DNA of 64,000 nucleotides from positions 18,820,539 to 18,884,538 of the forward strand of contig OY987248.1 of the NCBI GenBank assembly GCA_963920765.1, read 5' to 3'. This DNA is from Ulota crispa (lineage: Eukaryota > Streptophyta > Bryopsida > Orthotrichales > Orthotrichaceae). The notes under the pieces are model-generated. The model had not been told where the DNA came from, searched no databases, and saw only the letters and a program-made list of their open reading frames with translations. Below are positions 9,184-62,165 of this stretch, in pieces. Both the position numbers and the translations under genes were made by a program. Each line of letters begins with the position of its first letter. The stretch's first letter is position 1.

Positions 9184-9187
9184 TTAA

Positions 9188-9900
9188 CCCCTAAAGGACC
9201 AAAGTCCCCTGGGGACTTTTGGGATTTTGGGCATGTATTTATGGCTAAATTACTTTGTGTAGTTTTTTGAAATTTTTATGAAAGATGAGGAATTCAAAGA
9301 TTTGTGTGGGCATCTAATTTTTTCCTCATTCCGACATTTATTGAAGAAGTTAAAAATGAATTTATGAGAATTTTAGTTTGGCAAGCAGCCCAAAAACTTC
9401 TTTAAAAATTGCATTTTTTAAAATAAAAATTTGAGGTTGGTTCTTTAAACTTATGTATATGTAGGAAGCTTTGAATCATTCAATTTTAATTGATGAGATG
9501 AAAATTATGAGAAGTTTTAGTTTGCGTGTAGGCATTGTTTTGAGATTCTCCACACCTACCCGCAAACCAAAACTTCTCATAACTTTCATATCATCAATTA
9601 GAATTGAATGATTTAAAGCTTCCTACATACATAAGTTTAAAGAACTAACCTCTAATTTTTAATTTAAAAAATGCAAATTTTAAAGAAGTTTTTGGGTTGC
9701 CCGCCGAACTAAAATTCTCATAAATTCATTTTTAACTTCTTCTTTAAATGTCAGAATGAGGAAAAAATTAGATGCCCATACAGATCTTTGAATTCCCCAT
9801 CTCCCATAGAAGTTTCAAAAAATCATGCAAAGTAGTTTAGCCATAGGTACGTGTCCAAAATCCCATTTGTCCCCGAAAAGGGGGCTTGGTCCTTTAGTGG
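9188..9900. mobile_element. TTAA-flanked foldback element, piggyBac-like ends (713 bp)
   Basis: Flanked by TTAA at 9184-9187 and 9901-9904. It starts CCCCTAAAGGACCAAAG and ends CTTGGTCCTTTAGTGG. The two halves are inverted copies almost throughout; the centre is near 9540, where AAAACTTCTCATAACTTTCAT faces its complement. There is no ORF of note. Its left arm is shared with the elements at 13473, 41999 and 60170. Confidence 0.75.
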
Positions 9901-9904
9901 TTAA

Positions 9905-10779
9905 CCCCTAAAGGACCAAGTGTCCGTTCAACATCCACTTAAGAACTCGGTAGGGTCATATGGAGCCAACTTTTATTGGATGTTTTCAAAATTGTTACAC
10001 GAGGTGCAAATATGTATTCCCCAAGTAGATGTATAGTTTTTTCCTCAATCGAATGCCCAGTTCAAAAGTTATGCTGCCCAAAAGAATTTTGGGCAGTTTG
10101 GGCAGTTTGGGCATCTTTGGAAAATCTCATGCTAAAACTTTCATTAACTTTTGAAATTTGGCAAGTATGTAACTAAGAAAACATGGTGTACAATTGTCAA
10201 AAACAAAAACAAAATTGAGCTCTCACATCACACTTTGAAGGGAGTCAAACTTTGTTAACTATGTTTGGGTAGTTTCAAGAAGAAAAAGTCCTATAACTTT
10301 AGCCTTTAGGCCCTATTATCTTTCAATCTACAAATCCAAAGCTCTTGAAACTTTATTTCACACATTTCAAATGTTTGTCTCTAACTTTTCACTATTTAAA
10401 TTTCAAATAAAAGACTTCCTCATTGTACAAGAAATCATGAAAGAATGACTAATGTATTGCCAATTCACCAAATCTCCTTGCATTGTAGGACAATTTAGAA
10501 TAAGCTAGATTCTATATTTGTTTTGAACTTTATTTCGAGTGAACCTAACATCATTTACTTGTGAATGGTCAAAAAAATATTTTCGTGTAGAGCAAAAAAT
10601 TTACCCTAGGAAGCCTCAAAATCTGTTGACCCTGTTTTGCAAGAACAAAAAAAGTTGTTTTTCTCACTTCAAACAATATACTCTTACGTCTACAAGTTTT
10701 CAAAGTTGTCATCTAGTTTGCCATGTAGTCCAAGCTCTCTCCTTGATCGCCCCCTCTTTGGGTTGTCAAGTACAAGACA
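9905..10779. other. Second TTAA-element left end, then unassigned sequence
   Basis: The TTAA at 9901-9904 is shared: directly after it another left end reads CCCCTAAAGGACCAAGTGTCC (9905-9925). I could not find its right partner. Beyond about 9960 there are only short ORFs without motifs. Confidence 0.4.
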
Positions 10780-10781
10780 TA

Positions 10782-11211
10782 AGGTAGCAACACTCATAAC
10801 CGTTATTGTCTCCATGGGCTTGACCTACTCTTGACACAAGGTGTCAGTGACTTACAACTATTAAAAAATTTAGTTATGGGTACTTAAGTGATGGTTTTGG
10901 GTGACAAAGTGATGTTTACGGGTGACAAAGTGATGTTTACGGGTGACAAAGTGATAGTTGTAGGTGACTTACAAGACGGTATTGAGTGTCCCATTGCGTT
11001 GTTTTTAGCATCTCCTACTCACAACTATGCATTTTCAGCAGTTTTGGACTTTGGAAAATCTTTGTGAACAAATGCTTGCAATTGGAACTTTGAAATTGAT
11101 GCCAATATTTTTCATTCTTTCTTGTTAATCTAGCAATATTATTTTCAAGCTTGTTCAATTGAGGTATATAGCCTACAACCCTTAAACTCACGCTTATGGG
11201 TGTTGCTACCT
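10782..11211. mobile_element. TA-flanked MITE, AGGTAGC family copy 1 (430 bp)
   Basis: Termini AGGTAGCAACACTCATAA and TTATGGGTGTTGCTACCT are inverted and flanked by TA (10780-10781, 11212-11213), as in Tc1/mariner (Stowaway-type) elements. Inside, about 10888-10966, a 21-bp unit containing GTGATGTTTACGGGTGACAAA repeats almost four times. The related copy is 12011-12398. Confidence 0.6.
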
Positions 11212-11213
11212 TA

Positions 11214-12008: not shown

Positions 12009-12010
12009 TA

Positions 12011-12398: not shown

Positions 12399-12474
12399 TA
12401 AATATAATTCCACTAGGAAACTCTTAAAGAGGTGTTACGACATGAGTATGCAACGGTGTGGACTTATATTCTAA

Positions 12475-13004: not shown

Positions 13005-13007
13005 TAA

Positions 13008-13468: not shown

Positions 13469-13472
13469 TTAA

Positions 13473-14406
13473 TCCCTAAAGGACTAAAGTCCCCTTGGGG
13501 GACAAATGGGATTTTGGGCATGTACCTATGGCTAATCTACTTTTTGTAATTCTCTAAAATTTGTATTGAAGGTGGGGAATTCAAAAATCTACGTGGGCAT
13601 CTAATTTTTTCTTCATTCCAACATTCAACAAAGAAGTTATGCATGAATTTATGAAAATTTAGGGAGGACTGCCTATCTGGGCAGTCCTAAAAACTTTTTT
13701 AAAAATTTACATTTTCTAAAAATAAAAATTTGAAATTGGTTCTTTAGATTTTTTTTATATGTAAGAAGCTTTGAATCATTCAATTTTAATCAATGAGATG
13801 AAAGTTATGAAGAGTTTTGTTTGTAGGCAATTGTGATTTTTCTACTCTAAAATAAACTTTGAAGTCCTTTATTTTACTTAATTTTCAATATTTTAGAAAA
13901 AAAAATTAAACCAAAGGAAGTAGATTGTTTATCACAACATTATAAATGTTGGGATTTGCATTTTTCATTTCCATAATTAAATTCTTCACAATTTAGTGTT
14001 TTGACTCATTCTTTACTTCTTTTTACTTACTATATTTTCTCATATGTTGTATAGTTCCAATTGATTTGGAAATTCTCCCACACATACCTAACTTAATCTC
14101 ATACATGGAAAAATTAAAGCACAACTTTGGGTAGAGCAATTTTTTTCATGTAAGAGTGGTCAAAGGTTTTTGAAATTTATTAGCAGCAAGGAAAAAAACC
14201 TTTTCCTTTCACTTTAGATGTAAATACCTCCCTCCTCTCCATTTAGAATGACCTAAATTTTTCTCATAAGTACCTCTTCTAGTCTAAGGCAAGATCCTAT
14301 GGTTTGGTTTCCATTAAAAAAAAAAAAAAAAAAAACCTACCTTCTTACTCATCCTCTAGCAGGTTTCCATGATTTTGGCAGAAAAAAGGGCTTAATCCTT
14401 TAGGTG
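13473..14406. mobile_element. TTAA-flanked element, long type (934 bp)
   Basis: TTAA flanks at 13469-13472 and 14407-14410. Left end CCCTAAAGGACTAAAG is preceded by T in place of the first C; the right end is inverted (CTTAATCCTTTAGGTG). The left arm matches 9188-9540; the rest, including AAATAAACTTTGAAGTCCTTTA, matches 60170-61083 and, inverted, 41999-42932. A poly-A run lies near 14316-14335. Non-coding, so non-autonomous. Confidence 0.72.
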
Positions 14407-14410
14407 TTAA

Positions 14411-15429: not shown

Positions 15430-15433
15430 TTAA

Positions 15434-16865: not shown

Positions 16866-16885
16866 AGAGCATATAAACGCTACAA

Positions 16886-18883: not shown

Positions 18884-20633
18884 CAAAGTGTTAAAAAGTG
18901 AAATTCTGATGAAGACAATTATTATTTTTGGTTTAAAAAAGGAACTAAAATGACAGTGCATCAAGGTTAGATTTTGAACCAATTATGAGATACTGATTTT
19001 CTATAAAAGAGTAGATTCTAGACCAATTATGTTGTTAGATTATTTAGATATATATTTTCTATAAAATTGAACATTGCATTACTCATACATGTCCAACGCA
19101 AGCAAAGCATGTGCACGTATGTTAGTTATATATATGTGACAATATCACACAATGGTCAAGATGTGATATTAAAGTGGTCCAAATATGATATTACAAAGCC
19201 TAGTCTTGTGATTTTAGTAGTACAATGACTGTCTTTTCCTTTGTTGTTTAAAATTGAGAAAAAAATCAATTTATTTTGTATTTAGAGGGACAAGACATGG
19301 AGGTCAATATACATTGTTTACACTAGCTGAAGCACTAGAAGACTCTATGACATTTCTTTTAGCATACAACTGCATAATCTATACAGTCAATTTTGATCAA
19401 ATATTAATACTGAAACCCTATTCCTTACTAATTCCAACCTCAAGATTACTTGCATACCATGATAAATGTGCATTTCCTATATGTAGTGTGGTATGCAACT
19501 CAAGATTTTTTTGAGTAGCTGTAAACATTTGATGTACAGCTTTTGGAGACTTGTTGAGTAACTCTAAATATTTGATGTACAACTTTTGGAGACTTGTTGA
19601 TTCACAATAAAGAAATAACATTCTATATTTTACTAGATAAAAAGAACCAAAAACTCAAAAGTAATAACCATGCATGATAGTAAACTTTAATTGCATGATT
19701 TTATTCATTATTTGTAGCCCTATTAAATTGCATCAAGAGATTCCTGTATGTGTTTGTCTGTCAGATTCCAAAAATTGGGACCAATGCAAATGGGGAGCAA
19801 GAGATATTTTAATAGAATTCTTCTTTCAATAGCAAAATTTTGGATCCTTCAAGAGACCCGTAATCCCCAAAGGACCAAACAGCCCAATATGGCCAAATGG
19901 GATTCTTGGAGGTGTAAAAGTAGACAAAAAAGGCATTGCATGCTCAAGTTTTGGTCTGCCACTCAAGTCCAAATGGAGCTAAAAGTCCGACAAAACTTTT
20001 GGATCAGCTTGTTATTCCTTGAATCCTCTAGATTTTGCACCCAAACATTGGAAATTACTATTTTTAATATTAAAGCTATTAGTGGGAGTGTATGTAGGCG
20101 TTGTACATTGCATTGTGGATGGAGGAATTTTGAATGGGATGGATTGGAAGCCCACACTCCCATGAATATGGGAGAAGGTTGGTGATGTGTTACTTTTTTC
20201 TCTGTCTATTGGGCAAGGTGTTTGTAGCTCTAAAGCAGTGAGCCAGCTAGATACACTTACTTTGAATGATGATAAATTTTGGATTTTTTTCCCATTTGAG
20301 GAGTTTTTTTTTTTCCATCAAGTATGGCTAAACACGTTCTCATGGGATCAACCATTAGGTTATTTTTTTTTGAGAAAAAATCACATCAAAGTCCAAAATC
20401 CATATTGTGAACTACTACCCAAATTAACAAATATGAGATTCTCAATAGTGGGGATTTTGCAAATTTACTTGGATTTGAAATCAGACTAACTTTAAACTTT
20501 TGATTTATAGTTGGGTATAGAATGACTGGTTTGGATTATGTGAATACTTGTTCAACTTTTTAAAAATTGAGGAAATGTGCTGAAGGTTCCATATTGGAGG
20601 TATGCAAAATTTTCTTAGCAAGACGCTTAGGGG
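18884..20633. other. No gene seen; ends at a TTAA-element terminus
   Basis: AT-rich, with short ORFs only. At about 19861 CCCCAAAGGACCAAAC resembles a left TTAA-element end (flank mutated to GTAAT). The stretch closes with GACGCTTAGGGG before TTAA at 20634-20637, so parts may be an eroded element. The 145-codon plus ORF at 19748-20185 shows no recognisable motif. Confidence 0.35.
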
Positions 20634-20637
20634 TTAA

Positions 20638-21776
20638 AGGACAAGGTTACTATAATACATAGTATGTACATTGCTATATAACTAGCACTTGCTACCAAAT
20701 TTTTTTTTTAATTTGGGGTCTTGACTTCTTCACTAGAAGAGCATGGATCTATATTCTAACTTTTTTGTTGATCTCAAATATAATAAAGGTGTGGATGCAC
20801 TCCAAATACAAGAAAAATACACCATATTGTACTCATTGCAAAGGGCTGTCTCATCCTTTAGGGATTAAGAAGTCTCAAAAAGGATCCCAAGACATGTACT
20901 TATTGCATCAAACAAATCACTAATCCCATATTTCTGCCCACCTTTTCAATTCAATGCAATCATGAAAACTATATTGTTGTGCCATCTCAATAGGACAAAG
21001 ATGTGGGTACACAATAGAACCATAAATTTGGTTTTACTCTATTTGTATACATGAGTAAAGTACTTGGGTATGACTATTGAGTTCATTTACATATTTTATC
21101 AATGCTATGCCTTATTATATTATTTTAGATTGTGAATGTGGATAAGGTCCTTCATATAAGGACTAGATTGTCATTTTATATACATGATTTTAGAGATGTA
21201 GAATAGGAAAGCCATACAAGGTAGAGATACTTCACATACTTTCTACTATACCTAGCCTAGGCTCTATAAATGTTAATAGTGACAAAAATTAAGGGCATCT
21301 TGGAGGGTTCAAATTTTTGCTAATGGCATGATGAAATAAAATGGCATAGGTCATTCAATGGATGGAATGTTAGATGCATTGGAGTACCAAACATCTTATA
21401 TTAAAACAAAATGTGTAAGTCTGGCTTGATTCAACATATATGTTTTTAATTCAATTTATACTTGGTAGCTAGTACTAATTCAAAAAATATCACTTTACTC
21501 CAGTAAGGAGAAAAAATTGTATAGCTATCCAAAGTAATGAAATTACATGATGCAGTGCACTTACAATGTTTAACCCCTAGTACATAGTATGGAGAATTTT
21601 TCTTGTATTTGGAGTATATCCACACCTTTATTACATTTGAGATCAACAAAGAACTTAGAATATAGATCAATGTTGTTTTAGTGAGGTAATCAAGATCCCA
21701 AATTAAAACTTTTTATTGGTAACAAATGCCAGTTATACAATAGCGTACATACTATGTATTGTAGTAGCCTTGTCCT
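20638..21776. repeat. Inverted pair of related ~200-bp TTAA-type units
   Basis: 20638-20866 (AGGACAAGGTTACTATAATAC ... CCTTTAGGGA) and 21574-21776 are the same sequence in opposite orientation. Shared blocks include TTGATCTCAAAT, GGTGTGGAT and CTCCAAATACAAGAAAAA. TTAA lies at 20634-20637, 21570-21573 and 21777-21780. About 700 bp without genes separates them. Confidence 0.55.
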
Positions 21777-21780
21777 TTAA

Positions 21781-22006
21781 CCCTTAAACGTCTAAGAAGC
21801 CCTTTGCGACCAGTACAATATGGGATATTTTTCTTGTATTTGGAATCAATCCACACCTCTACTACACTTGAGACCAACAAAGCAGTTGGAGAAAAGATCA
21901 ATACGGTTCTAGTGAGCTACTTGAGATTCCAAATTAAAATTTCTTATTGGTAGCAAATGACAATTATACGTTAGCGTACACACTATGCCCTATGGACGTT
22001 TAAGGG
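21781..22006. mobile_element. TTAA-flanked MITE (226 bp)
   Basis: CCCTTAAACGTC at the left and GACGTTTAAGGG at the right, flanked by TTAA at 21777-21780 and 22007-22010. The internal part is a diverged copy of the 21574-21776 unit. A second GGGTTAA follows immediately (22011-22017). Confidence 0.7.
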
Positions 22007-22017
22007 TTAAGGGTTAA

Positions 22018-22869: not shown

Positions 22870-23615
22870 CTCACCACATGGCTTGTTCAAGACAAAGATG
22901 ACCACACCTTCAATGGAGAGGAGAGAACTGAAATAGTTCCTCAGACAAGTCCTCATCCCCATTCCTCAAGCAAATTGGCGCAACATAGTCATTGTCTATA
23001 TGTTACACCCCAAGCCTTGCATTTCGAATTGCACAATTCAGTGCCGCCCCTGCCACATCGCTAGCAATATCTTGGTTGAAAAGTTTACTATCATGCCCAG
23101 CAACCTGTCCATGTATTCTGCAACTTCCAAAATCAAGCCATCAGTTTTTTTGTGGCAATCAAACCAGAAAAAACGCAATATTTGTTAAATTGGGAAAATG
23201 AGTACATTTTGGTACTTTTGAGAATTTTAGGTGATCACTTAAAACCAAGCTCGCGGAGTTTTTTTGGTACACATGCCCTCACTTGAGAGGAGGAATTTGC
23301 AAGGGAGATAATCTTAGTGGCTCAGATTGAATTCAAATACCTTCAAATCTGGTTTAAGGTGGCTATTCTAGATTAAGGTGAGGTACAAAATGGTACCCAT
23401 CATTTTCCCATTTTAGTGAATATCAGGTTGTCAACCTCTTTTCCTCTTGCATTCAGAGCAGAGACCAACATGTTTGCATCATAGTTTCCTTTCACAGCGT
23501 TTATGTGGGACTTGAATATCAATGAGAGAGGATTTGGCACAATGGATTCAACATTGGCAGTGAATAAGCCATCTGCTATGGAGTGTAGCTCTTTTTTGGT
23601 AAAAGATTTCTTGCC
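22870..23615 (-). pseudogene. Josephin-domain (ataxin-3/JOSL-type) deubiquitinase relic, interrupted by a MITE
   Basis: On the minus strand, after an acceptor TTGACAG, the frame from 23615 reads KKSFTKKELHSIADGL...NPLSLIFKSHINAV...GNYDANMLVSALNARGKEV. This matches the middle of plant Josephin-like proteins. A 258-bp MITE (23172-23429) then cuts the exon. Beyond it the match resumes in the expected order: FFWFDCHKKTDG, LLGMIVNFSTKI, then GRH followed by a stop (TGA at 23038-23040) where the catalytic His-Trp is expected. A frameshift is needed before NDYVAPICLRNGDED. A late VVIFVLNKP segment precedes a GTGAGC donor near 22877. Josephin enzymes cleave ubiquitin with a Cys-His pair; the N-terminal exon with the catalytic Cys was not found. 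Insertion, stop and frameshift make it non-functional. Confidence 0.72.
23172..23429. mobile_element. AACACCATATT-family MITE, copy 1 (258 bp)
   Basis: AACGCAATATTTGTTAAATTGGG opens it and the near-inverse CCCATTTTAGTGAATATCAGGTT closes it. Internal blocks GGTACACATGCCCTCACTTG and CTTAGTGGCTCAG are shared with copies at 33422, 34007, 38049, 41460 and 47511. It lies inside the Josephin relic. No clean target duplication here, unlike other copies. Confidence 0.65.
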
Positions 23616-24185: not shown

Positions 24186-24189
24186 TTAA

Positions 24190-24427
24190 CCCCTAAAGGA
24201 TGTTGCCTACCAAAAGTGTTGTCTATATTCATAAGAAGATCATTTAGTACTTGAAAACATGGTTATATGACAAATGTCAAAAATTCCCCAGAAAATCCAA
24301 GTTTATCATAAAAATGTTTATGACTAGTTTAAAATTTACAACTCTAATGGGATTTATGTGCTACCCAGATACCCCATCCGTATACAATACAAGAGAGAGT
24401 ACACAATACATCAACATCCTTTAGGGG
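24190..24427. mobile_element. TTAA-flanked MITE (238 bp)
   Basis: Starts CCCCTAAAGGATGTTG and ends CAACATCCTTTAGGGG, a perfect 16-bp inverted terminal repeat. Left flank TTAA (24186-24189), right flank TTAG, one base changed. The interior is unrelated to the long TTAA elements. Confidence 0.7.
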
Positions 24428-24431
24428 TTAG

Positions 24432-36817: not shown

Positions 36818-36821
36818 TTAA

Positions 36822-37080
36822 CCCCTGAGTGCCCGGAGTCTGAACATAGTGTTGGGGTACCGAGAGACATACTTGCAATTGGGTTGAGTTTGTGGATTGG
36901 GAAACTAGATCCATAAGATTTGACCCTTGAAATTGCAAGTTCAAAGCATTCATCATGTGTTGGGCTTGGTCCCTGACTATTTCACCGAAGGAACAACACT
37001 ATTATACCAATCAAACTTGCATTGACTTTTCCTTCTTAGAATACCCATTGACAGTATAATGTCAATTGGGTGCTCAGGGG
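36822..37080. mobile_element. TTAA-flanked MITE (259 bp)
   Basis: Starts CCCCTGAGTGCCC and ends GGGTGCTCAGGGG. TTAA flanks at 36818-36821 and 37081-37084. Interior unrelated to other TTAA elements in the window. Confidence 0.72.
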
Positions 37081-37220
37081 TTAAGCTAGAAGTGGTTATG
37101 CAAGTTAGGATAACTCTGGTTGTAAGCCCCCCATTGACAATATAATGTTGACTGGGTGCTCAAGAATTAAACTAGAAGTGGTTGTGCAAGTTAGGATAAC
37201 TCTGGTTGTAGGCCCCTTTG
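37056..37220. repeat. ~83-bp direct duplication spanning a TTAA-element end
   Basis: ACAGTATAATGTCAATTGGG...TCAGGGGTTAAGCTAGAAGTGG and the following AAGTTAGGATAACTCTGG block recur directly from about 37138 (ACAATATAATGTTGACTGGG...CTCAAGAATTAAACTAGAAG). The last 30 or so bases of the 36822-37080 element were duplicated together with its flank, after insertion. Confidence 0.65.
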
Positions 37221-38048: not shown

Positions 38049-38305
38049 AACGAGACATTCATTAATTTGGGATAAAACGTTCATTTTTGGACTTTTGAAA
38101 ATTTGGGAAGATTGGGGTGATTACCCCAAACCAAGCCCCTTTGGTACATTTGTCCTCACCTGAGAGGAGAAATTTGTGAGGGAAAAAATCTTAGTGGCTC
38201 ATACTAAACTTGATACTTTTGAATATAGTTTGAGGAAACTATTTTGGATTGAGACGGAATACAAAATGGGACCCATGTTATTCCCAAATTAATGAATATC
38301 CCGTT
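38049..38305. mobile_element. AACACCATATT-family MITE, copy 4 (257 bp)
   Basis: AACGAGACATTCATTAATTT at the left and AAATTAATGAATATCCCGTT at the right. The 4-bp duplication AAGT flanks it (38045-38048, 38306-38309). Shares GTACATTTGTCCTCACCTGA and CTTAGTGGCTCA with its relatives. Confidence 0.72.
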
Positions 38306-39060: not shown

Positions 39061-39064
39061 TTAA

Positions 39065-39784
39065 CCCCTAAAGGCCCATTGTCCCTTTGGGGGATAAATA
39101 GAATTTCGAGCATGTACCTATGGCCAAACTACTTTGCGTGATTTTCTAAAATTTTTATTTTAGGTGAGGAATTCAAAGATCTATGTGGGAATATAAAAAA
39201 AACTTCACTTCGACATTTATTGAAGAAGTTAAAAATGAAAAACTGAAAATCAGGGGACTTCGGGTAGCCCAAAAAATTCTGCAAAAATTGTGTTTTTTTC
39301 AAATAAAAATCTGAAATAGGTTTGTTAGACTTATATAGACATGGGGAGCTTTGAATCATTCAATTTTGATAGATGAGATGAAAGTTATGAGAAGTTTTAG
39401 TTTGCGGGTAGGTGTGGTTTCTCTCAAATTCACACCTACTTGCAAACTAAAACTTCTCATAACTTTCATCTCATTTATCAAAATTGAATGATTCAAAGCT
39501 CCCCACGTCTATATAAGTCTAAAGAATCTATTTCAGATTTTTATTTGAAAAAAAACGCAATTTTTAAAGAAGTTTTTGGGCTGCCTGGAGTCCCTTGTTT
39601 TTCAGTTATTCATTTTTAACTTCTTCAATAAATGTGGGAATGAAGATTTTTTTATATTCCCGCGTAGATCTTTGAATTCCTCACCTTCAATAAAAGTTTC
39701 AAAAAATTGCGCAAAGTAGTTTAGCCATAGGTACATGCCCAAAATTCCATTTGTCCCCCAAAAGGGCCCTTGGGCCTTTAGGGG
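39065..39784. mobile_element. TTAA-flanked foldback element (720 bp)
   Basis: TTAA at 39061-39064 and 39785-39788. Starts CCCCTAAAGGCCCATTG and ends GGGCCTTTAGGGG. The two halves are inverted copies meeting near 39425. It is closely parallel to 9188-9900 in length and organisation; both look like an inverted doubling of the left arm of the 934-bp type. Confidence 0.78.
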
Positions 39785-39788
39785 TTAA

Positions 39789-40634: not shown

Positions 40635-40931
40635 TAGTCTAGAGTTGCTTTTGGGGACCCTCTGAGCTATAACTTTGCCCTTTAACCCTTTAGAGACAAC
40701 CAAACCATATTTTGGTTTGGGAGAGTAGTTTTTGGCCTATATAGTAAAATCACTCAACAATTTGGAAATTGATCTTGAAGAACGCTTATGATCACAAGAA
40801 TTTTGCATCCAACTCAAAAAACAACAATGGAATCAAATATGTGAGTTGTTAAATAATGGTGTTTATACATCATGGCCTTAAAATACGTAATCATATTTGG
40901 TCAAAGATGGATCAAAGCAACAACAAAATAC

Positions 40932-41073
40932 CACTAGAAGAAATCTTGTCCTATACAATTGGTTCACGATGACTGCAAATGTCCTAAACAACTATAATTG
41001 AGTCATTGTACAGTCGTTTAGGACATTTGAGTTGTTGTAAACCAGTAATTTAGGATAGTTTTTTCTTCTAGTG
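40932..41073. mobile_element. CACTA-type MITE (142 bp)
   Basis: Ends CACTAGAAGAAA and TTTCTTCTAGTG with the 3-bp duplication TAC (40929-40931, 41074-41076), the standard CACTA (En/Spm) signature. The interior pairs as GTCCTAAACAACT / GTTTAGGACATTTG. The other copy of the host element lacks it. Confidence 0.8.
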
Positions 41074-41459
41074 TACATCAAACATCCAAGAAGAATGCAA
41101 CATTTCAATTGTGCAATCTTAAAAAAATTCAGCTTGCTTAAGGAATATGCTTGTGTTGTTTCTCTATACAATAGTAGTATAATTGCAATATTTGAAAATC
41201 TATTGAAATGGTGCTATCATTTCATTTTCAAAATTTTTCATCCTACATTTGAGGCCAATTCTTGATTGCTTTCACCAATCAGATTTTCCATAACAATTAT
41301 CAAATTTCTTGTAGAACCGTTTTAGGGTAGCAAAGAAAGTGGAACTTTATACCCTTTTTGTCCACTTAGCTACACCTTGTGATTGTTTATCTATTTTTGT
41401 GTGAAACTAGTCTTATTGAAAAGGTGGGAAACCCTGCTTTCTAGAAATGTAAGGCCCTT

Positions 41460-41716
41460 AACACCATATTCATTAAATTGGGAAAAAGAGGTGTCCCAAC
41501 TTGTACTCCCCCTCAAACCCAAAATTTAGATTCAAAGGTATCAGATCTAGTCTAAGCCACTAAGATTTTTTCCCTTGCATATCCCTCCTTTCATGTGAGG
41601 TCACGTGTACAAAAAAAAGTGCTGAGCTTAGTTTGAGGAGATCACCTCAAGCTTTTAAAAACAAGTCTAAAAGTCCCTAATTATACCCCTTTTCCCAATT
41701 TACCTAATATGGTGAT
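41460..41716. mobile_element. AACACCATATT-family MITE, copy 5 (257 bp)
   Basis: AACACCATATTCATTAAATT to AATTTACCTAATATGGTGAT, flanked by CCTT (41456-41459, 41717-41720). The matching position in 57292-58196 (AAGGCTCTTTTCAATC) is empty, which confirms the boundaries within a few bases. Confidence 0.78.
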
Positions 41717-41998
41717 CCTTCTCAATCAAAGCTTGCATGAAGGGTTGACACTCAAAACCACACAAGCATGAAAAACTAGAGATTTTCCACATAAGGCTCA
41801 CTTAATCATTATAATATTTCACCTACAACAGTAGATCTAGCTAAAATTTTGATACATTACAACAAACAAGGTGTCCTTCACATTTGTACAGTTGGATTCT
41901 TCAAATTGGATCCATATTTGATTCAAATGCCCATCTAATTTTATTGCTATGGTTTCTAATGGATTTTGTGAAAATGGGTGTGGTCTTTAAAGGGTTAA

Positions 41999-42932
41999 CC
42001 CCTAAAGGCCCAAACCTATTTTTATGTGAAAGTCACTAAGAATTGCCACTTTAAGGGGAATGAGTAGAAAAGTAGGAAATAAAGTTTGTTTTGCAAATCC
42101 AATGTAGTATCTTGCCCTAGACTAGAAGAGGTACTTGTGGGAAAAAAATCAGGCCATTCTAAATGGAGAGGAGGGAGATATTTACATTTGAAGTGAAAAA
42201 AAAGGTTTTTTTCCATGTTGTCCAAAAAATTCAAAAGCCTTTGACCACTTTTACATGAAAAAAATTGCTCTACACAAAATTGAGGTTTATTTTTTCCATG
42301 TAGAAAACCAAGTTAGGTATGTGTGGGAGACTTTCCAAACAAATTGGAACTATACAACACATGAGAAAAAATTGTAAGTAAAAAGAAGTAGAGAATGAGT
42401 CAAATCACTAAGTTGTTAAGAATTTAGTTATTGGAATGAAAAATGCAAATCCCAATGATTATAATGTTGTAATAAACAATCTACTTCCTTAGATTTAGTT
42501 TTTTTTTCAAAATACTAAAAATGGTGGAAGATAAAGGACTTCAAAGTTTATTTTAGAATACAGGATCTATAATTGCCCACAAACTAAAACATCTCATAAC
42601 TTTCATCTCATTGATTGAAAGTAACTGATTAAAAGCTCCCCAAATACAAAAAAATTTAAAGAACCAATTTCAAAATTTTATTTTTAAAAAGTACAAATTT
42701 TAAAGAAGTTTTTGGGTTGCGTGGATTTCCCTCCCTCCCCTGGGTAGCAAAAATTCTTGCATAACTTCTTTGTCTAAAGTTAGAATGAAGAAAAAATTAG
42801 ATGCCTGCGTAGGTCTAGCTTAGAACTCCCCACCTTCACTAAAAGTTTCAAAAAATCACACAAACTAGTTTAGCTATAGGTACATGCCTAAAATCCATTT
42901 ATCCCCCGACAGGACAGTTGCGCCTTTAGGGG
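41999..42932. mobile_element. TTAA-flanked element, long type, inverse orientation (934 bp)
   Basis: TTAA at 41995-41998 and 42933-42936; ends CCCCTAAAGGCCCAAAC and GCGCCTTTAGGGG. It matches 13473-14406 and 60170-61083 read from the other strand and has exactly the length of the former. No coding capacity. Confidence 0.75.
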
Positions 42933-42936
42933 TTAA

Positions 42937-47510: not shown

Positions 47511-47779
47511 AACACCATATTCGTTAATTTGGGAAAAACAGGTGTTCCACTTTGTACTCCACCGTAAACCCAAAAAATTACTTTAAACCAACTAGATTTG
47601 AAGGTATTAGATTCAATCTGAGCCACTAAGATTTTTCCCTTGCAAATTCCTCCTCTTAAGTGAGGACACATGTACAAAAAAATGCTAAGCTCGATTTTAA
47701 GAGGCCTCCTAAAACTTTCAGATCAAAATTTGAAAGTCCCAAAATGTACCGTTTTTCCCAAATTAACAAATATGACATT
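47511..47779. mobile_element. AACACCATATT-family MITE, copy 6 (269 bp)
   Basis: AACACCATATTCGTTAATTT to AAATTAACAAATATGACATT, flanked by TAAG (47507-47510, 47780-47783). Partial relatives lie on both sides: about 47370-47410 (AATTGGGAAAAATGGAGGGACC) and about 47860-47925. Confidence 0.72.
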
Positions 47780-47783
47780 TAAG

Positions 47784-49114
47784 AGTTCACTATTGTACAA
47801 GAAAAATTAATGCATGTTTGTTTTTTTGTAATAGGCTAAAATGCACATAATGACGGAAATAGTGAAAGTCCTAGAGTGTACCTTTTTTCCCAATTCACCT
47901 AAATAAATATGGAGTTTGAGACTGTTCGTTTGTTCAAGGGGGTGAAGTTTTTATTATTGGCCGCAGGCCCGCATCCCACAACAGCACCACACTATCTCCG
48001 AAGCTTGCATGTGGTCCCTTGTGATGCAGCGCTTCGACGCTCGAGGGATCTATATAATAGCCCACCGGCCCTGCTAGGCAGATTTGTATTCCACAATTGA
48101 AACTACATAGGTCCAGCAGCACTCTATCTGTAAGCTGCAGTTGCATCATTGTCTTCTTCGCTTCAGGTTCGTCTTCGAATGTTACATTTGTTCTCTCCTG
48201 GAAATGCAGTAGTGATTTTTTGATGTTTTGTTACAAACTAAGAACTCATTGTCGGCCTCTGACATTACTTGCGGCGAACTGCTGAGATTAGTCTGTTAAT
48301 GTTGTAATAGTAGCAAGGCAGGGGCTGACGGCTGTGATCCTGCCTTTCGAGTTCACATGCGTTCACTTGAAAGGCTAGTGAAGATTCTCCTCCATTTGTT
48401 TATCAGCGAGACGGATTGATGCTGAATTCAATACTAGCTAGTGGAGAGAGCAACTTAAAACCGACAGTGAGATGGCTTAGAAACCGGTATATTTGTATTT
48501 GCAATGCATTTAAACGACATTGGTAGGTCGTTCTGGCGCGTCCTTTAGTAATGTCGTACGATTGTGTCATTCAGAGTTCCTGCAGGCTCCTACTGTTACA
48601 GTCTTCAATCAAACCTCGATCACGCCAACGTGCAACATGCATTCTGGATATATTGAGACCAGTTATGAACAACAAGGATCACAGGAATATATTATTATTA
48701 TGGACAGGGGAATAGTGAATCAGGGGAATCCATATGAACATTTATACACAGCTTACATATGAGTACAGGGAAATATGCACCAATCCCCTTCGGTCTTCTT
48801 ATCCCCTAGCATAGCATTGTCCATTGACGGTGACGGCCCTAGCCATGCCCTGGAAAATTCGTTCACAAGCAGAGGATAAGATGTTTTCAAATCTGTTGCT
48901 ATTGAATAAATTGTGGCTGTTCGGGTGCAGCAAATCAAATGCGTGTTGACAATTTGCATTCTGGTGTTGTAGTTTTGGTGGCTGACCCGCGACCATTCAA
49001 CTGTTGCTCACTCCGGATATGGCTAGTTTGGAATTTCATCGTTAAGTAATTTGACACATGTCAGGGTATTCCTTTTATGCAGATATTGATCATATCAGTC
49101 GGGAGAACATAGCC
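47784..49114. other. Upstream region of the germin-like gene
   Basis: No coding exon supported. TATATAATA at 48051-48059, followed within about 110 bp by a CTTCGCTTCAG acceptor-like site, could mark a promoter and 5' leader, but its link to the germin-like gene about 1 kb downstream is speculative. Short ORFs at 48520-48762 and 48753-48996 have no motifs. Confidence 0.25.
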
Positions 49115-49998
49115 ATGGCGCTTCGTTTAACGTTGGCGTTGGTGGTGGTCGCTCTGGCGGTGACCGTGCAAGCGGCCGACCCGGAGCTCACGACGGACTT
49201 CTTCGTCCCCGCGGGAATGAACAGAAGCGATATCATGAGCGACTACTTCATGTCGATGACACTCGCTGACGGCGTCAATATTACGGCGCCCGCCAAGTTC
49301 GGCGCCGTGCGCATCACCTCGGACAACACGCCCGTGCTCACAGGGCTGGGCGTGTCGACGGCCATCTTTAGGTACCAGCCGGGTGGCATCAACCCGCCTC
49401 ACACGCACCCACGTGGCACGGAGATTCTGTACGTGATGGAAGGAAACAACCTCACCGTGGGACTCATCGACACCACCAACAAGCTGTTCACTGCGGTAAG
49501 CCAAAAATTTGGTGTTTTTCAATCAATATGGAGTTGCATGTTATATATGGAGTGTATTTGGTCATTTCATTGGTCCAGATACACTCCATATATAACATGC
49601 AACTCCATATTGATCGAATATGGGGTCACTCAATTCTAATCCTATGGGCCATTTATCGAGTTCCAGAGGCGGTCTCTCATCCTGCCGAATTATTATTAGT
49701 ACAGGCATGGCTCGTACGAAAACTGCGTCATTCTAACTCAATTGTGGGAAAATCCCTGCAGGAATTGTACCCTGGCGATGTGTTCGTGTTTCCGAGAGGA
49801 TTGGTGCACTACCAAATCAACATGGGTCCGGTGGACGTGGTGGCATACATCTCCTTCAGCAGCTCCAACCCCGGGACTGTGTCGCTGCCTGCCAATCTGT
49901 TCGGAAGCGGTATCCCTGATGTTGTGCTCACGACAGCTTTCAAGGTGGATAACACCGTCATAGACAGTCTGCAATTGCCCTTCAACGTGACGAATTAA
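49115..49998 (+). CDS. Germin-like protein (secreted cupin), two exons, cysteine-free
   Basis: Exons 49115-49495 and 49762-49998, GT-AG intron, phase 0, 205 aa. Residues 1-20 form a signal peptide (LTLALVVVALAVTVQA). Germin box 1 is at about 88-116 (GGINPPHTHPRGTEILYV), with metal ligands His96, His98 and Glu103. Box 2 is at about 129-145 (LYPGDVFVFPRGLVHYQ), with His143. All four metal ligands are kept, so a Mn-binding cupin barrel is expected, probably hexameric in the cell wall; oxalate oxidase or superoxide dismutase activity is known in some relatives only. The N-terminal cysteine pair of typical germins is missing and there is no cysteine at all. N-glycosylation sites such as NRS and NIT are present. 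The start at 49115 is preferred over the in-frame ATG at 49058 because it opens directly on the signal peptide. Confidence 0.92.
49522..49614. repeat. Perfect 36-bp hairpin in the germin-like intron
   Basis: 49522-49557 and 49579-49614 are exact inverse complements, with a 21-base loop. The stem contains GGAGTTGCATGTTATATATG. A shorter relative is at 50811-50872. It may be a very young MITE; it would also fold in the pre-mRNA. Confidence 0.88.
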
Positions 49999-51719: not shown

Positions 51720-54352
51720 TTATATCTATCTGGTGAAGTCAGAGTATAAGGAGGCTATCCCCTTACATCGCGTATCTTCCATTGGTCTTGGGTCTGATGG
51801 ATCAATGACATGTGTTCTGAGAGTAATGCAGGGCCCTGAAGAATATATTTCAGGAAATGTTGTGACCAATGCCAATATTGAAGCATGACTGTTGAGGATC
51901 TGCGTACGTTGGAGGCTTGAATGGGGAGCTATACAGGAGTTGTATAAATCTTACCGCTCGAAGCCCACCTTGTGAATCGTATAAATCTAGTGGCCTGGAT
52001 TGTGTCAACAAAAGTCCATATAATTCAGTACGTATGTCAGGCTCATAGGCAAAACCTTCAATCCTCAAGCCTTGACAATGCTCTGCTCACAGAACTCTTT
52101 CGCAACGTGCTTGCAGTCAAGTACAAGTCCTGCTGCACCAATTCAGTAACTACGAGTAACTCGGTGACTAATGAAAACAAACAGACTCATTATACTATGG
52201 CTCTGTCCCCTCATATATGCATGAGATAAGATATTTGTGTCCTTGTAGCTAGAGTAATCTTTAGGGTGGTTGTTCATGCATGTCTCGTTGGTGGTAGCCC
52301 CAAGCAAAACACAAGCCCCACTCAAAAACGGTATTACATGAACAACTAAAAAGTATTGGTTAACACAGACCTACATATAAATAAGTCAGCTGGGTTTTTA
52401 CTCTCATCTGGAGATCCGGCTAGAGCTCCAAAACAGCTAGCTCACAGGTTGTAGGGTTTAAATACCATGTCCTTTCTTTCAATCTCAAACATTGTAGTCT
52501 GTATTTTTCGGTTGATCGAAGGGTTATGGCGGGGGTTATGGTCTCCCAAGACAAGGAGAAAGCGACACAGATTTGAAACTCGGACTTGGCAGTATGAGAT
52601 TACTCAGCTTTAAGATCAAATCTCCAATTATATTTGCTGTGACATCTGCAAGTGCAAAGCACAAAATTGCACCGGATACTCACCCAACTCTGTATCGAAT
52701 ACTTGCACCTCTTCAGTACTCACAAATATCTTGGAAGGATGGTCTGATATCAACACCAAAACCATACACGTCTAGTATTTCTCCAGATATTCCAACTCTC
52801 GAGTATTCCGGTTCAAGAGTTCGTGTGCTGAATAACAGGGAGTGTCAAATGATCCAGGTGTTTGTAAGGTTTCGCAAGGACATACCAAACATTTCCTGAT
52901 GTCTCAAAGTGGCTTACGGCTTCTGAGGCTGTTGTTGTGGGGCTCGTTGAGGGGCTTGAGGTTGTCGTGTATCTCATGTTGGGTGTGCATGTGGCGCAAA
53001 GCAAGGTTTCATAGAATGTATGCCCTTGTGCCACGAAACCTGACAAACACGCCCTTCGGACTCGCTGTCCAAGGTTAACAATCTTCTTCCCATGGAATAG
53101 GGTCAGACGCGGTTTGTCAAGTTTCTAAATGTAGCCATATTTGTGTTTCCTTGACAGTTTAGATTCGGGAAAAATCCGGCTAGTGGGAATTTAAGATACG
53201 TCAACGCCTTGCAATCAGGAATTAGGATGCAAGGAATCTAAAGAGCAGAAAGATGAAGATCTAGTTAAAAATGAAGCGTCATGCTCACGGAAGAACAAGG
53301 CTGCTGCTGGTAGGACACTGGTCCACTGGAGTCCGAAAATCCACCTGCACGTCTCTGTTTCCAGTCCACCACCAGCAATCTCCATGGCGCCATCACGCAT
53401 CATGTGCCTCTCGTTGCAACAGCCATGGCAACATCCGTGGTGCACTTTACCGAACCCCACCAAATTCTAAGTCGGAAATTGAGGCCTCTCTCTGTGCAAG
53501 TGGAGTACAGTAGTTGGAGTTGCTGATGTACTAAGGTTGTGTTTTGTGGTGGATGACAAAGCCAGTTCCGCAAATTGCTTGCCAACACGTGGAGTTCGAG
53601 TCAACACTTTTGTTCTGAGACTTGTGAGGATTGAAATTAGGGTTTTACTGCCGATCAAGGCAGTCTGATTACGAATTCAAGGGATTTGAGCGACAATTCT
53701 TGGTTTAGGGTTGCGAAATTTTTTAGTTAGAGATGATGCTGATTGTGGAGCAGGGGTCAGGATGGCGATGTCGTTACGTACGAGGGAATTGCTGGAGAGT
53801 AAACAGAGTTCGGCATGGGTGAGATTAGTGCAACAGAGTTCGACATGGGTGAGATTAGTGCAACAGAGTACAGCAACGGATGTGGTGGTGCCCATACCTC
53901 AAATGGAGATTCAAAACAAAAGGGAAGATGGTGAGTAGGAGCGTGCCAGAGACGGTGATCTGCGGAGAGCATTCAGGCCCGCTATCCCTCCACTACCCAG
54001 AGCGGGAGGTGACGCTGCTCGGTTGCCCGCCTCACGCGGTACCCTCCACTGTAACGCCATAGCAATTCCGCCCTCCGGCGGAATCGAGGTGGCGACTCCG
54101 TGTTTGGAGTAGACAGGCCTTCGACATGTCTCCACAGGCCGCGGACTGGAGTCCCACTTCCACATCTCCCTACCCTCGCTCGAGTGACAGGCAGGCGCTA
54201 CCCTGCCCAGATGACGGAAAAGCTGGGCTAATTCATATATATACAAAGTCCCATCTATGCCACCAATCGATATGGGTTTTCATGTCACAGCCTGCATGCC
54301 GTTGCTAGAGAGCTTTGTTTTGATTGTCCAATCTCCAGTTCTATATTTTATT
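51720..54352. other. Region without recognised genes; 30-bp tandem repeat
   Basis: GC is moderate and several ORFs of 60-110 codons occur (for example from an ATG at 52591, and 53759-53936), but I recognise none. About 53808-53867 is a 30-bp unit (GAGTTCGRCATGGGTGAGAT) repeated twice, giving VRLVQQSS-type repeats in one frame. GTGAGTAG after 53931 could be a splice donor. A divergent or lineage-specific gene is possible here. Confidence 0.3.
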
Positions 54353-54417: not shown

Positions 54418-55190
54418 GGGCATTGATATGTGTACCACACCCTTTGAGCTACTATACCACACCTTAGGGTAAATTTTAGATTTCTACCATCAAAAAGCTA
54501 AATTTGAGAATTAGGAATTCACGTTTGGACTTAACCCCTAACCGTCCAAGAGGACAAAAATCATCCTTTCAATGCCAAAAACACACCCCAAGGGTGGAAA
54601 AAGATTTTTTTTTCAATTTTTTTTTCTTGAAAGTGGTGAGAGAGATGTGCCACATCATTGAATATCAAAAATAGCTACTTTCAATGCCTCCATATTTTTT
54701 CAAACACCAACTTGTGAAGAGATGTATAAGGTCCTTGTTGCCCTTTTTGTGACGGCAAGATACACTATTGACTTTTCTTTCTTTTGAAGAGAATATTATC
54801 TCTTTTGGACACATGCCGCAGGCTGTTCATTGCCCATGAATAGTGCACTCTCCTCGGTCTGAGTCACGAGTTCAGGGTCAGTCTTTTAAGGGTTAAAGAC
54901 TGTCTTTTGGTCTAGAACCACAAAAAAGTGTTTTAATTGAACAATGCCCAATGACAAAGTTTAGCTAGGGAAAAAATATTACTTTTACTTTTCTTTAGAA
55001 AAAAAGATAAGCATTTTCATTGGATGTTGTTCAATTAGAACCTTTTTATGATTCTAGACTAAATCAAGGTCTCTAAGTCCAAATCTGAATTCCAAATTCT
55101 CAAATTTAGCTTTTTGATGGTAGAAATCTAAAATACACCCAGGGGGTGTGGTACAGTAGTTCAAAGGGTATGGTACATATATCAATTCCC
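54418..55190. mobile_element. Family A MITE, copy 2, nested
   Basis: GGGCATTGATATGTGTACCA to TGGTACATATATCAATTCCC. The flanks TTCTCAGAA and TTTTCAGAA form a 9-bp duplication with one mismatch. The interior matches 7563-8075 (CTACCATCAAAAAGC, TTTGGACTTA, GTCTAGAA). Confidence 0.72.
54535..54892. mobile_element. TTAA element nested in the family A MITE (358 bp)
   Basis: CCCCTAACCGTCCAAGAGG at the left, CTTTTAAGGG at the right, TTAA at 54531-54534 and 54893-54896. The host reads GGACTTAA before it and TTAAAGACTG after it. The other host copy reads GGACTTAGAGACC uninterrupted, so one TTAA was duplicated. Confidence 0.75.
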
Positions 55191-57215: not shown

Positions 57216-57291
57216 TAAGCAAGGCCTAGTGCAAATATACCACCCTAGAATTCAAACATGTGCTACCAAACAAATTGGATATATCAGTTAA

Positions 57292-58196
57292 CCCTTTAAG
57301 GACCACGCGACCATATTTTGGTTGCTGGGAGTGGTTTTTGGCATGTAGGTTGAAATCGCTCAATAATTTGGAATTTGGTCTTGAAGAACACATGTGATCA
57401 CAAGAATCTTGCATCCATCTAAAAAAATAACAATGCAATCGGGTATGTGAGTTGACAAATAATGGTGTTTATACAGCATGGTTTCAAAATACGTATCCAT
57501 TTATTGTCAAAGATGGATCAAAGCAACAACACAATACATCAAGTATGCAAGAAAAATGTCAAATTTCAATTGCACCATTCTATAAAATTCAAATTGCTTA
57601 AGAAATATGCTTGTATTGTTTTCCTATGCGGTAGTAGTATAATTGTAGTATTTGAAGATTTACTAAAATAATGTTGTCATTTTGGCTTTAAAATTTGTCA
57701 TCCTACATTTAAGGCCAATTCTTCATTGTTTTCACCAATTGGATTTTCCAAAATAATCATCAAATTTCTTGTAGAACCGTATTAGGGTAGCAAAGAAAGT
57801 GGGTTATTTGACCCTTTTTGTCCACTTAGCTACACCTTATGATTGCTATTTTTGTCTATTTTGTGTGAAACAAATCTTATTGGAAAGGTGGGAAAGCCTG
57901 CTTTCTAGAAATATAAGGCTCTTTTCAATCAAAACTTGCATGAAGCAATCACATTCAAAACCACACAAGCATGAAACACTAGAGATTTTCAACGTACGGC
58001 TCACTCAGTCATTATAATATTTCACCTCCAATGGTAGATCTAGCTAAAATTTTGGTGCTCTATAGTAAGCAAGGTGTACTTTTCATTTGTACGATTGGAT
58101 TCTTGAAAATGGGTCTATTTTTGAGTCAATTGCACATCTAAGCTTATAGCCCCTCTTTTAGTGGATTTTGTGAAAATAAGTGTGGTCCTTAAAGGG
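57292..58196. mobile_element. TTAA-flanked element (905 bp)
   Basis: TTAA at 57288-57291; the right flank is TTTA (58197-58200), one base changed. Ends CCCTTTAAGGACCACG and GTGGTCCTTAAAGGG. It is the uninterrupted relative of 40686-41994. Confidence 0.72.
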
Positions 58197-58200
58197 TTTA

Positions 58201-58612
58201 TCATTCTTGGTAAGGTAACCTTATCCATACTCAAGTGTTTAAGGGTGAGGGTACCTCAAGGTCTTGGAAAAATTAGGAAAAAAATTCATTGGGTTAGCCT
58301 TTCAACAAGCTATCATGAGAGTGAATTTTGTGGAAAATTTATTGTAAGTTACTTTATATTAAAGGGCAAAGTTGCAGCTCATAGGGTCCCTATTAGCAAC
58401 ACTCTAAACTACCCTTGAAATTGCTTGGATGTGTTCCTATACATGTAATTGACGGTCCCATTCCCAACCCTCCCAAACTAACTTCTAAGCTAACATGTGA
58501 TAAGATTTGCTTGTGCAAGTAACTTTCAATGTTCCACTTTGGATTCAAGAGTGTGTGGAAAACATCCCAAATGTAGAGTGCGACAATGGGAACCGCTCAA
58601 GTATGGGGTAGG
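58201..58612. repeat. Dispersed repeat, inverse of about 40040-40300
   Basis: Contains GGATGTGTTCCTATACATGTA and GTTCCACTTTGGATTCA, the complements of blocks near 40140-40275. No gene. Confidence 0.45.
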
Positions 58613-58616
58613 TTAA

Positions 58617-59472: not shown

Positions 59473-59476
59473 TAAA

Positions 59477-60165
59477 GTTACTATGGCTACAGTATTCAGG
59501 GGCCTAGATGATGACCCATAACATTTAGTAGCACTCAACAAGCTTGCCCTCCCTCCAACTGAAGAGTGTGGAATATTCCACACCCATCAGTAGCTAAGAG
59601 GACACTTGGTTGAATTTGTTAAAGAGTTTATGAAGGAGAGGCTCAATTTAGTGCACATACATCGATGTGGGGGCCAGCCATGTAAGAAAAAATTAATCAA
59701 AAATTAAAAAATAAATTTTATATATATATATATATATAATCATGATGAAGTTAGTGGATGATATCTGAAGAGAGGGAAAGGCAGCCTCTCTTCAGGCTAC
59801 TGAATGTTATGCTTGAACGTTTTTAAATTCTCATCCTCTTTGCTTTTTATCATGTCCACAAACATTAAAAATGTAAAAAGAATCTCACCTACCTTGACGG
59901 TGGAAGTCCGCTTCATTGATTAATGCTTCGTTTCAGAAGGAAGGGGTCCGCCTAGAGTCTACAATAAATAGTGCAACCACTACACTCACCAGGTATCGCT
60001 GCCCAAAAGAAATCTTCTCTTGACTAGCACTTTGACAAGTTTTACAAAACTTGTCGCTAGGGAACTTGGCTTTATGTTAGATTTTCTCATGATGACGGCA
60101 ACAATCATGTTCTCCCTGAATTTTGTGCATCACAATAGATCAAAAGAAAGATGTATGAGACCATT
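59477..60165. other. No gene seen; (TA)n run
   Basis: An alternating TA run lies at about 59719-59738. A CTCAATTTAGTGCACATACA block near 59643 is a single arm of the MITE at 44432-44733. No ORF of note. Confidence 0.4.
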
Positions 60166-60169
60166 TTAA

Positions 60170-61083
60170 CCCCTAAAGGACTGTTGTCCCTTCAAGGGAC
60201 AAGTGGGAGTTCGGGCATGTATCTTTGGATAAGTTATTTTGTGTAATTTTCTGAAACTTTTATTGAAGGTGCAGAATTCAAAAATCTACATAGGCATCTA
60301 ATTTTTTCCTCATTCCGACAATTATTGAAGAAGTTATGCATGAAAATTTGAAATGCAAAGGAGGACTGCCCGCCCGGGTAACCCAAAAACTTCTTTAAAA
60401 ATTAAAATTTGAAATTGGTTCTTTAGATTTTTTTATAGGTGAGAAGCTTTGAATCATTCAATTTCAATCAATGAGATGAAAGTTATGAGGAGTTTTTGTT
60501 TGCAGGCAGTTATGGATTCTCTACTTTAAAATAAACTTTGAAGTCCTTTATTTTACTCAATTTTCAACATTTTGGAAACTAAACAAAACCAAAGGATGTA
60601 GATTGTTTATCACAACATTATGACCGTTGGGATTTGCATTTTTCATTTTAATAATTAAATTATTAACAATTTAGTGATTTGACTCATTCTCTACTTCTTT
60701 TTGCTTACTGATTTTTCGTATGTGTTCTGTAGTTCCAATTGATTTGAAAATTCTCCCACACATAGCTAACTTGATCTCCTACATGGGAAAAAAAAAGCGC
60801 AAAGTTTTGTAGAGCAATTATTTTCATGTAAGAATGGTCAACGGCTTCTGAAATTTTGCAGCACCATGAAAAAAACCTTTTCTTTTCACTTTAGATGTAA
60901 ATATCTCACTCATGTCCATCTGGAATGACCTGATTTTTTTCCACAAGTACCTAATCTAGTCTAGGGCAAGATCTCAAGGTTGGATTTCCTAAATTTTTAG
61001 AAAAAATCACCTTCTTACTAACCCCCCCAAAAGTGGCAGTTTTGAGTGATTTTCACTGAAAAAATGGCTCAGTCCTTAAGGGG
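60170..61083. mobile_element. TTAA-flanked element, long type (914 bp)
   Basis: TTAA at 60166-60169 and 61084-61087; ends CCCCTAAAGGACTGTTG and CAGTCCTTAAGGGG. Colinear with 13473-14406. Confidence 0.75.
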
Positions 61084-61198
61084 TTAAATTCTTCTTCATG
61101 TTTGTATATAAGATCAACAAGGTCCACAAAGAAGTTGAAAACAAAAAGGTTTGGGCACCTTGCATAAAAATGCAAGGTGTTGATCGAAGGTGCCTCAA

Positions 61199-62081
61199 CC
61201 CCTAAATGCCAAAGGGTACTTTTCTTGTTTCTAGAAGGCAATTTTGAAGTTTTTGAATAGTTTTTGTAAGATTGTTATTAAACATAAAAAAAACTTGTAA
61301 TTGTAGGATCTTGAACTTCAAGGCTCCTAGTTGGTGCTATCAAAAAAAACTCCAAAAAAGGCACATAAATTTTAAGATATTTGTGATTGAATGTGGATGA
61401 ACATAAAATTTTCTAGTTTTTTTGAAGCCGCTTAAAACTTCTAATGCAAAAAATGGCAAATTTTGGGAACAAAGTTGGTAAACAAACACTTGTGATGCTT
61501 TAGTGTTCATTATTGCTACTTCAAAATTGATGACCCCCCTTCCAAATTCATGACCACAATTTCACAAATGAGCTTGAAATGCAATTGTCAAAGAGCTACC
61601 ATCTAATACAAATTTTTTTAGCTCCAATCATTGACCAAAATTTGATATGAATGGAAGACAACTCAACAGTGAGTGAATTATAAGATTTACAACAAAAACG
61701 TCCCAAGTGAAATTAGCTCAAAGACACATTTAGATTTTGTTAGATGATGAGTTTTTAATAAAAGGGCCCTCACTGCCCAAGGGAGTGTCTAAGGGAAACG
61801 TTGACTTCGTGCAAAGCTTGTTGCCGGTTTTTCCAATGTGGCAACTTATCAAGAACTCTTTAGTGACACTATTCATCACACTTTTTGATGTGCAACAATC
61901 ATGCTTGCAGTTTAGCTTCCACCAAAAACAATTGGAATGTAAAGAATATTAAAATTGAACATTGTAGCTGACTTCAAACCACAACTTCTCCAAAATAAGG
62001 TAAAAACAACTAATTCTCTGACTTCAACAAGGTTTCAAAGTTTCTTGAACATCCAAATTTGATGCCTTTGGCATTTAGGGG
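61199..62081. mobile_element. TTAA-type element (883 bp)
   Basis: CCCCTAAATGCCAAAGG at the left and CCTTTGGCATTTAGGGG at the right, a perfect 17-bp inverted repeat. Right flank TTAA (62082-62085), left flank TCAA (61195-61198), one base changed. The 71-codon plus ORF inside has no transposase motif. Confidence 0.7.
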
Positions 62082-62165
62082 TTAAGGGCATCCCACTTGA
62101 CCTTAAAAGCTTCATCACCAAGAAACACAATGTTTTTGTTTTCATTGTTGACAACATGTTTTCCC

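Follow-up and report, generated by a model that had tools for sequence, protein, structure and literature searches.

The window analysed here, a 64,000-nucleotide stretch of the Ulota crispa genome (contig OY987248.1, positions 18,820,539 to 18,884,538), contains 13 recognisable non-autonomous elements, E1 to E14 with one number vacated, that together make up 9,276 bp or 14.5% of it, counting in a nested 258 bp repeat. These elements are very probably non-autonomous piggyBac transposons, or miniature inverted-repeat transposable elements (MITEs), mobilised by a piggyBac transposase from another locus of this genome. The presence of TTAA-flanked elements with one end design is confirmed: TTAA flanks both edges in 9 of the 13, E6, E12 and E14 each have a single base altered at one edge, and in E2 one end is missing. 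Comparison of the interiors by blastn (1e-4) separates the elements into eight groups with no between-group match, namely group A (E1, E3, E8, E10 and E13), group B (E9 and E12), and E2, E5, E6, E7, E11 and E14, each with an interior of its own. An original prediction, made from the letters of this DNA, had proposed several unrelated non-autonomous groups sharing one end design, and the grouping bears this out. Ten of its twelve element starts do carry TTAA directly before a CCC-type end, but 13473 reads TTAA-TCCC and 61199 reads TCAA; it also overlooked the element at 9901.

The common end design of the window elements is TTAA-CCCYT-N-A-NN-G-N-C. TTAA followed by CCCYTNANNGNC occurs in 20 exact copies in the window, against none for seven other A/T cores and none for the reversed sequence. 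Ends of the looser form TTAA[CT]CC[CT]T number 17 on the left and 15 on the right, and the other nine of the ten cores counted reach at most 7 left and 6 right ends. In 100 first-order Markov control sequences such ends average 4.5 (maximum 11), compared with 32 observed, and end pairs average 0.02 (maximum 1), compared with 8 observed; among these 8, the pair 21777-22017 reuses a left end, and 51-979, which matches at 11/14 positions, was not taken as an element and may be a further one. Across the 274.8 Mb genome, the 14-mer TTAACCCCTAAAGG is found 15,411 times (7,719 forward and 7,692 reverse), a count of ends rather than of elements, and its reversed control occurs once forward and not at all in reverse. 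The window has eight of these exact copies, six at left and two at right ends, a density per base about double that of the genome as a whole.

The superfamily is piggyBac, as had been predicted. A genome search with the PF13843 (DDE_Tnp_1_7) profile, in which 116 of 528 first-look candidates were scored, yielded 120 matches spread over contigs C1 to C11, all above the curated cut-off, with a best E value of 1.3e-73; in some cases two matches are fragments of a single gene. Pairwise identity among the 30 best domains averages 38% (range 26-80%), and their three catalytic columns hold aspartate in 27/30, 22/30 and 26/30, with all three strict catalytic motifs together in 6/30. Judged from the alignment, the putative catalytic triad is a feature of the family and not of every copy. 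A CxxC zinc-finger pattern lies just past the domain at 22 of these 30 loci, in frame at 16. The domain at locus L019 matches the solved structures of piggyBat (9c0f; 1.2e-21) and the piggyBac transposase (6x67; 1.1e-16), and a Pfam scan of one open frame from L043 and two from L044 returned PF13843 alone. A tblastn search of the window with the 30 domains gave no match at 1e-3.

Six loci were fetched with their flanks and read for full-length elements, which prove to be 5.0-5.7 kb long, with the same kind of ends and the transposase enclosed. The DDE_Tnp_1_7 transposase lies between such ends at L039, L041, L042 and L043. The first three are bounded by TTAA across the transposase, at 863-5889 (L039) and 896-5997 (L041), with ends matching at 12/16 positions in both, and at 1801-7108 (L042), with 13/16; the fourth spans 695-6350, with edges TTAA (695) and TTGA (6350). 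Alignment of L039 to L040 gives a single block of 5,029 bp at 90.5% identity that ends within one base of the element ends, with unrelated flanks, so mobile full-length elements of this design are seen directly; the left edge in L040 is TTCA. The 3' terminal region of L043 recurs at L036 (70% over 315 bp), which indicates that this end belongs to a transposase element. At L044, where the transposase frame is open in two pieces, no convincing upstream end was found.

Comparison of 25 MITE ends with 10 piggyBac ends, taken from five copies representing four elements, indicates that the two populations share more than their first bases. Position 5 is T in all 35 ends, position 7 is A in 25/25 MITE and 8/10 piggyBac ends, position 10 is G in 24/25 and 10/10, and position 12 is C in 21/25 and 9/10. 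Each of positions 1-3 is C in 24 of the 25 MITE ends. The nearest match found is between the left end of E12, in group B, and the 3' end of L043, which agree at 13 of 14 bases.

Duplication of a TTAA target is evident at 9 of the 13 window elements, at L039, L041 and L042, and at an empty site. For the empty-site test the outer flanks of 65 pairs, many of them not real elements, were joined and searched, skipping matches near the element itself; only the E9+E10 double insertion and E11 gave matches spanning the junction. The paralogous empty site for E9+E10 lies in the window at 58218..58411 on the minus strand (74% over 207 bp across the junction) and has one intact TTAA. The original prediction had named beforehand the lack of a TTAA duplication against empty sites as its refutation, and it withstands this comparison. 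A second empty E9+E10 site, at L040 124-291, aligns at 82% over 168 bp through the junction. The joined flanks of E11 match six element-free places (L022, L034, L012, L043 and two in the window), each with a single 4-bp site. An apparent empty site for E5 was rejected as a repeat of that element's own half.

Several results weigh against the piggyBac interpretation of the MITEs. The L040 copy of the E9+E10 site reads TTTA, and an intact TTAA is missing from all six E11 empty paralogues, where the site is TTAG in four cases, TAAG in L022 and TTGG in L034. Stops fall within 110 of the 120 PF13843 rows, leaving 10 without an internal stop, and the second catalytic aspartate is replaced by Asn in 7/30 and by Glu in 1/30 of the best domains. 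The profile finds no match in any of 14 control genomes, which may be no test for plants. At L042 an alternative end pair, 1419 and 7267 (10/14), surrounds the same transposase. A strict CCYT start is present in 7/25 MITE and 5/10 piggyBac ends, the rest having mostly C at position 4, and the full form C.CYT.A..G.C is present in 18/25 and 7/10. Not one of the ten piggyBac ends carries the exact CCCCTAAAGG sequence, and the terminal 450 bp on either side of the four piggyBac elements gave no window-MITE match at E 0.01. A comparison at E 1 returned only end matches and short ones of chance size (for example 23 bases in E6), with a nested E2-family copy as the exception. Subterminal sequence that would mark the window MITEs as deletion derivatives of the sampled piggyBac elements was not found.

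The last of these results are what one would expect if the MITEs owed their movement to Kolobok or Sola3, superfamilies that likewise target TTAA, and the piggyBac elements formed a separate TTAA-using population. The transposase of both differs in kind from that of piggyBac. The sampled piggyBac elements lack both the exact CCCCTAAAGG end and window-MITE subterminal sequence, as this explanation would have it, but beyond the initial CCC the MITE and piggyBac ends mostly also agree at A7, G10 and C12, and the group B end of E12 is nearly that of the L043 element, which, on the evidence of the ends, makes the alternative improbable. Far less credible still is the idea that A/T-rich composition or repeat structure, rather than target duplication, produced the TTAA edges: the window is 63% A+T with 426 TTAA occurrences, and the E11 paralogues are no help to a duplication, but the absence of the end from seven other A/T cores, the Markov controls and the single intact TTAA at the empty E9+E10 site all speak for a genuine target. 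Contamination by animal or oomycete DNA bearing the transposases has next to nothing in its favour, for although the piggyBac superfamily is said to be widespread, above all in metazoans (PMC10175614), the matches lie on contigs C1 to C11, of which C1 to C10 are 16-41 Mb long, and the window with the same end design bears a plant signal recognition particle RNA and a cupin gene, which mark it as plant DNA.

The piggyBac interpretation implies a mechanism, which we infer from the anatomy of the elements. A piggyBac transposase encoded elsewhere in the genome would bind the common end, TTAA-CCCYTNANNGNC, cut the element out at TTAA and reinsert it at another TTAA, which would thereby be present on both sides. 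Such transposases could act in trans on short elements in which nothing but the recognised ends is retained, and the interiors of the MITE groups may have arisen or diverged independently. The ends would be conserved because the transposase reads them, and with only the ends under selection, unrelated interiors would follow. The ends themselves, the empty site with its single TTAA, the mobile full-length elements of the same design, and the catalytic and zinc-finger motifs are observed directly; binding and cut-and-paste movement are probable on this anatomy, and the transposase clades sampled here, or near relatives of them, may be what moved these particular groups.

The original prediction is partly supported as a whole: piggyBac, the unrelated groups and the transposases stand, but present activity and an autonomous element with the exact CCCCTAAAGG end do not. 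It had called for an active source elsewhere in the genome, where transposase genes are indeed encoded, but their internal stops leave current activity unsupported. Likewise, a full-length element with these ends exists as regards the kind of end, but the exact CCCCTAAAGG sequence is in none of the four elements. Identity is 71-82% among the window copies of group A, 83-88% among E2-family copies and 90.5% between L039 and L040; no near-identical pair is present among the compared copies, a small sample, and recent movement is therefore without support.

The state of the transposase genes offers further observations. At L044 3250-4938, stop-free piggyBac transposase frames lie in two pieces about 270 bp apart, and at L043 3451-4866 a stop-free transposase occupies one frame, seemingly with an in-frame extra stretch. 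The interruptions are possibly introns and the copies possibly retained genes. Replacement of the second aspartate among the 30 best loci (L009-L038), taken with the many TAG and TGA stops in the PF13843 matches, would fit decay via cytosine deamination. Opposite-orientation transposase pairs lie on one contig each at C7:18203169/18223004 and C2:36765124/36779670, with equal scores, and at C10:676128/785346, with close scores. These pairs look like inverted segmental duplications rather than products of transposition.

Known chiefly from animals and in wide use as a genetic tool, piggyBac has, to our knowledge, been little described from land plants. The Trichoplusia ni element is about 2.5 kb long, compared with 5.0-5.7 kb for the elements here, whose host is a land plant. 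The present elements share with the superfamily the TTAA target, inverted ends starting with CC, a DDE_Tnp_1_7 domain with three Asp motifs, and a C-terminal CxxC zinc finger. They depart from the piggyBac rule of TTAA plus CCYT (PMC10175614), applied here with a terminal inverted repeat (TIR) of 12-19 bp, in that their ends start CCCYT, often CCCCT, one C beyond CCYT. Like catalogued plant MITEs, the window elements are short, non-autonomous, inverted at their ends and high in copy number; they differ in having a TTAA target and piggyBac-type ends. A MITE survey covering 207 plant genomes, including four from bryophytes, works with five superfamilies and a special group, and the word piggyBac is absent from its main text (PMC12550479). 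piggyBac-like elements are said, with no detail, to occur in plants (PMC10813416, PMC8086355), and a table for ferns gives 1,230 PiggyBac copies as 0.00% of the genome (PMC6890710). In Ptychostomum knowltonii, a moss annotated by means of EDTA and RepeatModeler2, TIR transposons account for 29.13% of the genome, with CACTA the largest share (PMC11704416); totals of this kind may conceal piggyBac elements. Among the matches listed, no title or beginning of an abstract announces piggyBac elements from a bryophyte. A further candidate source, PMC10619864, was discarded, its sole matching word being "piggybacking".

With more than 15,000 piggyBac-type ends and more than 100 mostly broken transposase matches, the system is of a known kind and on a scale unusual for a land plant. 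A wider reading, which we offer tentatively and hold to be rather doubtful, is that it represents a long-lived native piggyBac radiation in a land-plant lineage, in which the end code CCCYTNANNGNC was kept across clades and many unrelated MITE groups were mobilised, in which the few open-frame copies with intron-like interruptions may have become host genes, and which five-superfamily catalogues would have missed or misfiled. The abundance of exact ends and transposase matches makes this genome a natural setting in which to study how plants silence such elements, and it suits the question of how a transposase coevolves with its ends. The findings also suggest that a sizeable component can escape plant repeat annotation when this is confined to five MITE superfamilies.

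The window elements were delimited from 14 candidate stretches, of which 13 were kept and recompared with corrected edges; the stretch 20634-21780, formerly E4, was dropped as the middle of an inverted duplication. Within group A, E1 (9184..9904, plus strand, 721 bp) and E8 (39061..39788, plus strand, 728 bp) are non-autonomous foldbacks, largely inverted repeat, and are 77% identical over 734 bp. E1 has TTAA at both ends, a TIR matching at 16/20 and arms at 9211-9458 and 9627-9874 that are 88% complementary; E8 has a TIR of 14/14 and 252 nt arms that are 83% complementary. E3 (13469..14410, plus strand, 942 bp) is 80% identical to E13 over 950 bp, and its edges, with the right end corrected to 14410, are supported by L007 1501-2440, which aligns exactly to 13469-14410. 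E13 (60166..61087, plus strand) is 922 bp long with a TIR of 13/14. E10 (41995..42936, minus strand, 942 bp; TIR 13/14) is 82% identical to E3 over 838 bp and adjoins E9, and a further correction is that one TTAA is common to its edge and the right end of the element at 40682.

That neighbour, E9 (40682..41998, plus strand, 1317 bp, TIR 12/14), belongs to group B and contains an unrelated repeat of about 258 bp nested at 41460-41717. It is 82-83% identical in three blocks to E12 (57288..58200, plus strand, 913 bp), whose right edge, TTTA rather than TTAA, was placed by alignment to E9 and to L041 830. E2 (9901..10687, plus strand), which has a TTAA in common with the right edge of E1, is a shortened copy of a TTAA-ended family of about 955 bp and lacks the final ~170 bp. 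The longer form, 953-967 bp, is present in L004, L006 and L043, with edges TTAA, TTAA and TTAA/TTGA, respectively. The match of 9901-10687 to the 3' side of L043, first taken as a piggyBac terminal piece, was rejected as such, since it reflects a separate MITE family nested beside L043's own end at 6350.

The other elements each have a group to themselves. E5 (21777-22010, 234 bp) sits beside an inverted duplication in a composite at 20621..22017 (no strand assigned), which has extra TTAA-[CT]CC[CT]T ends at 20637, 20868, 21570 and 22017. E6 (24186..24431, plus strand, 246 bp) has a right edge that, read outward, is CTAA, not TTAA. E7 (36818..37084, plus strand, 267 bp) has TTAA on both sides and a TIR of 11/14, and its right end is overlapped by an 86 bp tandem duplication in two copies at 37044-37216. 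E11 (54531..54896, plus strand, 366 bp) has TTAA on both sides, and E14 (61195..62085, plus strand, 891 bp) has a left edge TCAA and a right edge TTAA. Of the 32 ends, those assigned to none of the 13 elements are at 979, 8295, 14392, 18883, 20637, 20868, 21570, 22017, 39795, 45532, 58613 and 63973; of these, 14392 falls within E3, and the four from 20637 to 22017 belong to the composite that contains E5.

The plant signal recognition particle RNA lies at 53924-54211 on the minus strand (152 bits, gathering score 105). Nine other Rfam matches, all miRNA-type and up to E 0.01, were below their gathering scores and set aside. The cupin gene, which we take to be germin-like, lies at about 49058-49998, where two overlapping open frames match successive halves of Cupin_1, a layout consistent with an intron.

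A second short repeat family, whose copies are about 260 bp long and have inverted ends resembling ACACCATATT..TTAAATTGGGAAA, is also present in the window, at 23172-23444, 33422-33672, 34008-34281, 38062-38305, 41460-41717 (the copy nested in E9) and 47511-47774. Further copies are found in L001, L008, L039 and L041, and at L008 a TTAACCCCTAAAGG end lies within the end of another copy of this repeat.

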